DNA of 33,211 bases from Planctomycetaceae bacterium (GTDB lineage Bacteria > Planctomycetota > Planctomycetia > Planctomycetales > Planctomycetaceae): positions 1 to 33,211 of the forward strand of contig JAQGHS010000774.1 of the NCBI GenBank assembly GCA_028291605.1. Direction: 5' to 3'. Shown in pieces: positions 23,253 to 25,498 of this stretch (the stretch's first letter is position 1; each line of letters opens with the position of its first letter). Position numbers and translations under genes: made by a program. The notes below the pieces were generated by a model that was given only the letters and a program-made list of their open reading frames with translations, did not search any database and was not told the origin of the DNA.

Positions 23253-24590
23253 TTACTGGGGAAAGCACTTTCCGAACGCGACCAGCAGTTTGAGTGGGCC
23301 GGCGAGCCGAATCTTTCGCCGCAGCAGGGCCCAGACGATGTTCTTTTCCTTCCTCAGAAAGCCGATCCACGTTTGCGAGTCAGCGGTCACGCGCAGATCG
23401 GGCTGGCCGACATGCCCCTCCTTCACGCTGAGCTGTTGTTTCCGGATTACGACGGTGGCCTGCCGCTGCTCACGACCAGTGAAGGTGAAGTGGAAAGTGG
23501 CGTTCAGTCCCGCCGACTTGCCTGGCTGGAAGACGTTCGACATTCCCCTGAGAAAAACCTCGATGGTGTTCGGCCGCAGGCTGTGGCCCACATGCTTGAT
23601 CTTTTTGTGGGGAAATCGTTTGGCGACATGTTCCTCGGCGTCGGAGTTTTTAGTGACGTAAATCGTCTCCTCCTTCTCTTGCAGCGGCCGCACGATTTCC
23701 TTGAGATGTGTCTTCCGATCGGCGAGGAACGGCCCAATGACGTCCTCCCCGGCCGGGCAGACCGCCAGGCAGTATGCGGCTTTGTAGTTCGCCCCGAAGG
23801 ACAGACTCTGCCACATCGAGGCCGACTCGGCATCGCTGACGCGACCGCGGTAGTCGCGGGCGCTGCTGCTGTCGGCCACCTGCTCGACCCAATCGGTGAA
23901 GCCCCCCATGAACTCGCGGTAGTTATGGGTGTAGCAGGCCGAGAAGTTAAAATCTCCCTCCGGCGAGATGGCTCCCACAGGACATGCGGCCACGCACAGT
24001 TTGCATTCCAGACAAGGGTTGTAGCTGATCGGCTGGCTCGACTCGGAAACCTCGGCATCCAACAGGATGGTCCCCAACAGGATGAAATTGCCGAACTTCT
24101 CGTGGATCACGTTGCGGTGAATGCCCATCATGCCCAGCCCTGCAGCCACCGCGACCGGTTTGTGAGACACGATCCAGACCTTGCCGGGGAACCGGTCCAT
24201 CTCCATCGGGAAGCCCATCGCCGGGTTCAGTGCTCGGAGCCCCCTGACTTCCAGAGTCTGAACCACGCTCCGGGCAATCTCATTGACCTCATCCCCGCTA
24301 TGGTGGAACTCGGTGTTGGAGACCGAGCGAGCCGGTGTCCGAATGGCCTCGCGATTCATGCGAACCACGAAGCTGATCAGCGTCCTGGTGTGGGGGAACG
24401 CCTTCAAAATGTCGTCGCGCTGATCGTCCAAAGCGGGTCTGCCGATCTCGACAAATCCTACGTCATCAGCACCAGCATCGAGGACCAGTTGCTTCAGCCA
24501 TCCGGCATCCAGCGACTCGCCCTGCGACGGAACGGAGGGTCCGGCTTTGAGGTGCATCCGCTGCACGGTCGGGTGATCTTCAAGCTTCAT
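23253..24590 (-). CDS. QueG/reductive-dehalogenase-like 4Fe-4S protein fused to an SCP2 domain
   Basis: Starting at the ATG at 24590, behind AAGGAG, gives 445 residues; the track start at 24614 is eight codons earlier. The N-terminal 190 residues resemble the catalytic part of QueG and reductive dehalogenases, which bind a corrinoid: DAGADDVGFVEIG, then SHKPVAVAAGLGMMGIHRN and KFGNFILLGTILLD. A ferredoxin motif CLECKLCVAACP (C-x2-C-x2-C-x3-C) and a later CLAVCP fit two Fe-S clusters. Residues about 355-445 form an SCP2 (sterol carrier) domain, from ATFHFTFTGRE to the C-terminus. There is no Tat signal, so it is cytoplasmic. It may be a corrinoid-dependent reductase for a hydrophobic substrate. 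Substrate and cofactor are not proven. Confidence 0.8.
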   Translation of the reverse strand: MKLEDHPTVQRMHLKAGPSVPSQGESLDAGWLKQLVLDAGADDVGFVEIGRPALDDQRDDILKAFPHTRTLISFVVRMNREAIRTPARSVSNTEFHHSGDEVNEIARSVVQTLEVRGLRALNPAMGFPMEMDRFPGKVWIVSHKPVAVAAGLGMMGIHRNVIHEKFGNFILLGTILLDAEVSESSQPISYNPCLECKLCVAACPVGAISPEGDFNFSACYTHNYREFMGGFTDWVEQVADSSSARDYRGRVSDAESASMWQSLSFGANYKAAYCLAVCPAGEDVIGPFLADRKTHLKEIVRPLQEKEETIYVTKNSDAEEHVAKRFPHKKIKHVGHSLRPNTIEVFLRGMSNVFQPGKSAGLNATFHFTFTGREQRQATVVIRKQQLSVKEGHVGQPDLRVTADSQTWIGFLRKEKNIVWALLRRKIRLAGPLKLLVAFGKCFPQ

Positions 24591-24603
24591 GGCTGCTCCT
24601 TGT

Positions 24604-24620
24604 TGTATATGCAACTATCT
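24604..24620 (-). promoter_or_regulatory. Putative MarR operator, copy 2
   Basis: TTGTATATGCAACTATC is identical over 17 bases to a site upstream of the marR gene. It contains the near-palindrome TTGTAT-ATGCAA, typical of MarR-family operators. It lies just upstream of the ribosome-binding site of the Fe-S/SCP2 gene. Confidence 0.65.
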
Positions 24621-24633
24621 GGGTAAATAAAAA

Positions 24634-25089
24634 TCACCGTGTCGCATTCGCCTGGCTGACTCGCTGCATGGCCTGGTTCAACTGCTCCACGAACCCGGCC
24701 CCCAGAACCTTCTTAACCTGCTGTTGTGCCTCGCTCCAAGCGGGAATCGCTTTTTCCAGAAGCTGGCGTCCCTGTGGTGTCAGTCGAAAAGGCTGCGAGC
24801 GGCCATCCTCGTCGGGCACAACTTCCAGCCAGCCACGAACCTTCATTCGTTCGACGTTGCGGCTGAGGGTGGAAACGTCGAGATGCAGGTGTTCGCAAAC
24901 TTCAACGGGGCGAGCTATACCCATCTTGGCGGCGGCGACCAGGATGTTCATCTGGCTCACCTTCAGGTCAAGCGACCGCAGGGCGTCGTCGTAGATATTG
25001 GTGATGACGCGATTTAGCATGCGCAGCCGAACGGCAACGCACTCGCTGGCGACCTTGTCAATCATCGTTTGCATCTGCTCGGCTCCCAC
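24634..25089 (-). CDS. MarR-family transcriptional regulator
   Basis: The 151-residue protein has a winged helix: RPVEVCEHLHLDVSTLSRNVERMKVRGWLEVVPDEDGRSQPFRLTPQGRQLLEKA, with the DxR wing typical of MarR. An N-terminal dimerisation helix and a C-terminal helical segment flank it. The GTG start at 25089 has AGGAGG six bases upstream. An out-of-frame ATG immediately after that ribosome-binding site gives only a ten-codon frame. Identical operator-like sites lie upstream of the gene and between it and the downstream Fe-S/SCP2 gene, 43 bases away. It therefore probably represses itself and that gene, and releases on binding a small aromatic or oxidant ligand. Confidence 0.88.
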   Translation of the reverse strand: MGAEQMQTMIDKVASECVAVRLRMLNRVITNIYDDALRSLDLKVSQMNILVAAAKMGIARPVEVCEHLHLDVSTLSRNVERMKVRGWLEVVPDEDGRSQPFRLTPQGRQLLEKAIPAWSEAQQQVKKVLGAGFVEQLNQAMQRVSQANATR

Positions 25090-25105
25090 TTCATGCCTCC
25101 TCGGA

Positions 25106-25177
25106 TTAGTCCGCGATCAGTTTGCGTGCCACAGTCTTCCCGATGTTGCCAACGCCGAGAATGCCGACTTTTATGAT
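25106..25177 (-). pseudogene. N-terminal remnant of a Rossmann-fold NAD(P) oxidoreductase
   Basis: Read on the minus strand, 23 codons give IIKVGILGVGNIGKTVARKLIAD and then TAA. The GxGxxG dinucleotide-binding fingerprint is intact, and the beginning matches F420-dependent NADP oxidoreductase-like proteins (PF03807). A GGGAG precedes it, but no ATG/GTG/TTG start remains in a sensible place. The TAA is followed a few bases later by the marR ribosome-binding site. This looks like the stub of a deleted gene that stood between the operator and marR. Confidence 0.55.
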
Positions 25178-25196
25178 CGTTTCTCCCTACGGCTAA

Positions 25197-25213
25197 TTGT
25201 ATATGCAACTATC
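25197..25213 (-). promoter_or_regulatory. Putative MarR operator, copy 1
   Basis: TTGTATATGCAACTATC is identical to the site at 24604-24620 and in the same orientation. It is about 108 bases upstream of the marR start and just upstream of the oxidoreductase remnant. Confidence 0.65.
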
Positions 25214-25498
25214 GGTTTGTCAAGAGGCAGCCCGTGATCTCACAAGAGGGAATCCGAATCCGGGCCAGGCCACGGGTTCTCTGAACGTGTATGAGCAAAG
25301 CGAATTCGAGGATGTTTGGTTGGTGACTCTCCCCCCGCACGCAGTTGGCTCTGGTGTTGAGTGTGATTGTGTCGGTTGGAATTCTGGGTATCATGCGGGC
25401 GTTGTTCGCGTGGAGTGCGTCACAGAGGCCGCTGCCTAGCGGATCAACTCCGAGTGACCCCGTACCCGTTCCTGACACGTACTCCGAAGGATTGAGCC

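Follow-up and report, generated by a model that had tools for sequence, protein, structure and literature searches.

Efflux and redox proteins are the usual targets of MarR-family repressors, and E. coli MarR has two operator sites that lie together in the promoter region. The footprint of a second member of the family, M. tuberculosis Rv2887, is GC-rich and different in sequence from the operator described here (PMC5526998). Bacterial repressors bound inside transcribed regions also act as roadblocks, as described for CodY, CcpA, PurR, GalR, ArsR and LacI, while many DNA-binding proteins are poor roadblocks (PMC10310618); an extra operator serving as a roadblock has been used as an engineering means to cut leak (PMC12970293). 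In eukaryotic Pol I termination, a T-rich sequence 15 bp upstream of the Reb1/Nsi1/TTF1 site is where the polymerase comes to a halt; this sequence promotes backtracking and weakens the hybrid, and a hairpin is also required (PMC12366685). The MarR literature searched contained no match to the operator TANTTGYATATRCAANTA, and the literature searched for planctomycete MarR operators yielded nothing relevant. Among the open-licence papers found, no title or abstract joined a T-tract or T-rich element to a roadblock in bacteria. The MarR switch considered below is itself of a familiar type; the open-licence literature searched, as represented by its titles and abstracts, contained no case of a second, intra-operon operator preceded by a conserved T-tract at fixed spacing.

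The locus lies within a window of 33,211 nucleotides (the whole stretch of DNA analysed) from the draft genome of a Planctomycetaceae bacterium. A preliminary description of this window had reported two identical 17-bp sites, in the same orientation, that bracket marR, and exact copies of TTGTATATGCAACTATC were indeed found at 24603-24619 (site D) and 25197-25213 (site U), with a spacing of 594 bp. The chance expectation for this 17-mer in the window is 0.02 matches, and no third copy occurs in the window with up to three mismatches allowed. The term bracketing is accurate as to position but falls short as a reading, because marR, the Fe-S/SCP2 gene and all other parts of the switch are on the minus strand, such that in the direction of transcription U precedes marR and D precedes the Fe-S/SCP2 gene, each site being upstream of its own gene. 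A genome-wide scan for additional copies, which the same description had suggested, returned U and D as the only two exact matches in the 9.1-Mb draft, and the many copies within coding regions that it had named as evidence against an operator did not appear. The sole further match to the 14-mer GTTGYATATRCAAC at one mismatch or fewer lies within a long ORF on contig C1040 and was rejected as a regulon site for that position; a match on contig C415 was likewise rejected, as both Y/R positions of the core deviate. With no further plausible site beyond the operon in its own draft genome, the proposal of a self-contained switch is supported. Two features go beyond the earlier account, namely that U overlaps a strong promoter and D does not, and that D is accompanied by a T-tract locked to it in position.

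Site U, with its palindromic core TTGCATATACAA at 25197-25208 (minus strand), lies in the spacer and -10 element of a sigma70-type marR promoter at 25196-25223 (minus strand), which reads TTGACA, a 16-bp spacer and TACAAT and matches the consensus at 11 of 12 positions, where 0.4 promoter-like sites would be expected in the region by chance. The minus-strand sequence of U is CTTGACAAACCGATAGTTGCATATACAATTAG, and the palindrome spans both the spacer and the -10; relatives mostly carry TTGAC at an equal spacing (TTGAC-17-TACAAT). The marR gene itself (24634-25089, minus strand; GTG start picked from alignment with relatives) encodes a predicted winged-helix repressor that scores 33.6 bits against Pfam MarR_2 (cut-off 27), placing it in the MarR family, and its closest solved structures in the PDB are Rv2887 and E. 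coli MarR. A cysteine near the N-terminus, C17, is shared by at least 90% of the 30 homologues aligned and could be a redox or electrophile sensor. Immediately after the marR stop, a T-rich tract, TTTTTATTT (24625-24633, minus strand), ends 11 bp before the start of operator D (24603-24619, minus strand; core 24603-24614). The Shine-Dalgarno AAGGAG of the target gene (24596-24601, minus strand) follows 2 nt past the D core, in a position that is conserved, and leads into the Fe-S/SCP2 gene (23253-24590, minus strand), predicted to encode a QueG/reductive-dehalogenase-like 4Fe-4S protein with a C-terminal SCP2 domain. The minus strand of this junction, TGATTTTTATTTACCCAGATAGTTGCATATACAACAAGGAGCAGCCATG, thus runs from marR stop through T-rich tract, palindrome and Shine-Dalgarno to the Fe-S start. 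The locus resembles the MarR-family autorepressors of E. coli and M. tuberculosis in its MarR fold, as judged by sequence, in a probable homodimer on a palindrome, in a predicted operator over its own promoter, and in a target within the same operon. However, where E. coli MarR has both sites at the promoter, the second site here lies inside the operon, past marR.

Between U and marR lies what appears to be the decayed 5' end of a gene for a Rossmann-fold NAD(P)-binding protein, translated as IIKVGILGVGNIGKTVARKLIAD and then a stop (25108-25176, minus strand), which matches Pfam F420_oxidored weakly (E 0.0017, under the curated cut-off). This remnant is part of an insert of about 90 bp that is absent from the related loci examined, and no other copy that might be its source was found in its own genome. 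It has no ATG but its own SD-like GGGAG, and it directly follows U, as if operator U had once driven such a Rossmann gene.

Conservation was assessed in 80 related marR loci, mainly from Planctomycetota, with a few metagenome-assembled genomes (MAGs) labelled as other phyla; the closest named relatives of the window are Planctomycetota MAGs. Counting an operator with at most one mismatch, U is present in 68 of these loci, D in 65 and both in 59. Among the relatives of this genome, marR homologues down to about 38% identity nearly all have TTGYATATRCAA, mostly with 0-2 mismatches, upstream, and in most of them the same operator is repeated before the next gene; no sites accompany two homologues of about 30% identity (L033 and L034), where the family reaches its limit. 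Information profiles from de-duplicated sets identify the conserved unit as the 18-bp palindrome TANTTGYATATRCAANTA rather than the 17-mer, which consists of the palindrome core, one arm and two outermost bases (TC) that are not conserved. The constraint that had been read from the 17-bp identity is therefore real for the palindrome, but does not extend to the equality of the two copies, as the 12-bp cores of U and D are identical in only 28 of the 59 two-site loci. In a first set of Fe-S orthologues, D occurs within 500 bp upstream in 19/19 marR-adjacent genes and in 0/7 unlinked ones (Fisher p 1.5e-6, a nominal value since the loci share descent), and D stays before the Fe-S gene even where DNA intervenes after marR (602 nt in L141, about 930 nt in L184). 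Judged by this placement, D goes with the downstream gene. The same two-site switch also precedes genes for HlyD/RND membrane-fusion, NmrA-type NAD(P)-binding, DUF302 and membrane proteins. The presence of both sites in 59/80 loci, together with the absence of the site from marR-unlinked Fe-S genes, strongly supports the operator reading first offered for them, and U and D are very probably the two operators of an autoregulated MarR switch.

The flanks of the two sites have different profiles: TTGAC stands at -16 in U, and T is found at 80-89% from -17 to -11 in D, where each position of the T-tract carries about 1.0-1.4 bits relative to about 0.1 in the flanks (de-duplicated set, n=44). A run of at least five T, usually T7, precedes 51 of 65 D sites as opposed to 7 of 68 U sites (p 2.5e-16, nominal). 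The end of the tract lies 9-14 bp from the operator (median 10, sd 1.07), and its distance to the marR stop ranges from -2 to 225 nt (sd 45.6). The tract is weak or absent in about one fifth of D sites, and that of the window is an interrupted, degenerate version of the T7 of relatives. As a test independent of marR, 298 genomes of the class were scanned for the pattern T5-N(10-12)-operator, with the reversed pattern as a control; this recovered 24 composites, every one of them downstream of a marR homologue and on its strand, and the control gave 0. A scan for the U-type pattern gave 16 places, 14 of them before marR in the right sense, one the palindrome partner on the opposite strand and one before a fabF-like gene. 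This last TTGAC-operator composite (L221) has no marR homologue nearby, and may be either a chance occurrence or a distant member of the regulon.

These observations can be assembled into a model, to which we would assign a probability of roughly 55% as a whole, by which a MarR dimer may repress its own operon through two operators of the same sequence. The model proposes that at U, MarR would cover the only strong promoter at its spacer and -10 and so block initiation of both marR and the Fe-S/SCP2 gene, and that at D, bound MarR would act as a roadblock to a polymerase that has passed through marR. The active centre of the halted polymerase would then rest on the T-tract, 10-17 bp upstream of D, and because a T-tract in that position would give a weak RNA:DNA hybrid (rU:dA), the complex could backtrack or release. 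Low-level production of marR could in this way continue while the target is off, and a ligand that removes MarR from DNA would open U and D together. We infer MarR binding, the ligand, stalling and release, and a stall distance is assumed for MarR. In favor of a roadblock, D lies within the transcribed region and lacks both a -35 and the last T of a -10; against it, no hairpin is enriched and the T-tract of the window is interrupted. The model resembles roadblock repression as described in bacteria in that a repressor site lies downstream of the transcription start, here known from sequence alone, but differs in the T-tract at a fixed distance and in the conserved place between repressor gene and target. 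When an autorepressor and its target are in one operon, making the repressor leaks the target; a second operator after the regulator gene would resolve this conflict. The two-operator arrangement is apparently widespread in one phylum, and the T-tract predicts where the polymerase would stop.

More tentatively, and at somewhat less than even odds, the T-tract as a release element and the MarR operator may together constitute a repressor-dependent terminator between marR and the target, at which the ligand-free repressor would terminate transcription. With a similar degree of reserve, such a terminator could be viewed as matching the Pol I Reb1/T-rich terminator in layout, though switched by a ligand and free of a hairpin. 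At D, as at the Reb1/Nsi1/TTF1 site, a T-rich non-template sequence precedes the site of a (here putative) roadblock protein by about 15 bp, a likeness of layout alone, with no homology. However, the locus is bacterial, its repressor is presumably ligand-controlled, and no upstream hairpin is conserved. If confirmed, this would be a hairpin-free, protein-gated bacterial terminator recognisable from sequence alone.

Several of the same features may be accounted for differently. Site D could be a second, weaker MarR-repressed promoter-operator for the Fe-S gene, laid out like U with the T-tract as its -35, given that the slot of the T-tract (-17 to -11) matches that of TTGAC in U (-16) and that the palindrome has a TACAAN hexamer. 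However, T7 makes a poor -35, 57% of U sites but 18% of D sites retain the final T of the -10, and a promoter scan of the window detects the U promoter only, with no sigma70-type promoter recognised at D. Further, a distance of 7 nt from the hexamer would put the transcription start within or beyond the conserved Shine-Dalgarno, whose first base is mostly 13-18 nt from the operator start, the start codon usually being at 24-29. A second promoter at D is accordingly rather unlikely, and since the Shine-Dalgarno precedes any start site that D could give, the target is most plausibly transcribed from U, through D, as it would be in the model where MarR at D obstructs a polymerase coming from U. 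Alternatively, D could be an operator and the T-tract could act in the mRNA, as a U-rich ribosome standby or S1 site that aids translation of the target. The T-tract is frequent where the start codon is at most 40 nt from D and weak or absent in most loci beyond that distance, as such a role would have it. However, the spacing of the tract to the start codon scatters more (sd 4.8) than its spacing to the operator (sd 0.95), L117 has the tract with its start codon 140 nt away, and the tract accompanies D before unrelated target genes; we consider a translational role improbable.

An ordinary intrinsic terminator, or an attenuator, at the end of marR might also account for the T-tract as its tail, with D following by chance. 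The tract often begins directly after the marR stop, and stable hairpins precede it in a few loci (L112, L119 and L145), but its position tracks D and not the marR stop, and over 52 loci the hairpins before it do not exceed those of shuffled sequences (median -3.4 kcal/mol, mean z -0.19). Since these hairpins are no stronger than shuffles, the T-tract is not a usual terminator, and we consider this explanation very improbable. A still simpler account would have the repeat arise by accident, either through local duplication or through the insertion that brought the Rossmann remnant. The insert of about 90 bp after U is particular to this genome, and the TC of the 17-mer is unconserved, as an accident might leave it; however, dozens of other genomes, the same genus included, have both sites but no insert, and an accidental origin can scarcely be entertained. 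The switch with MarR acting at both U and D is thus retained as the preferred reading.

Two further observations concern individual relatives. Very similar marR/Fe-S operons are found in MAGs labelled as Acidobacteria, Methylococcaceae, Deltaproteobacteria and Nitrospirales (L103, L105, L113, L117, L130 and others), reflecting either horizontal transfer or mis-binned planctomycete contigs. In a locus from Isosphaeraceae (L165), a perfect inverted repeat of about 56 nt, ggcttttcttagggccaattcgTTGTATATACAAcgaattggccctaagaaaagcc, is centred on D and would fold as a long RNA hairpin.
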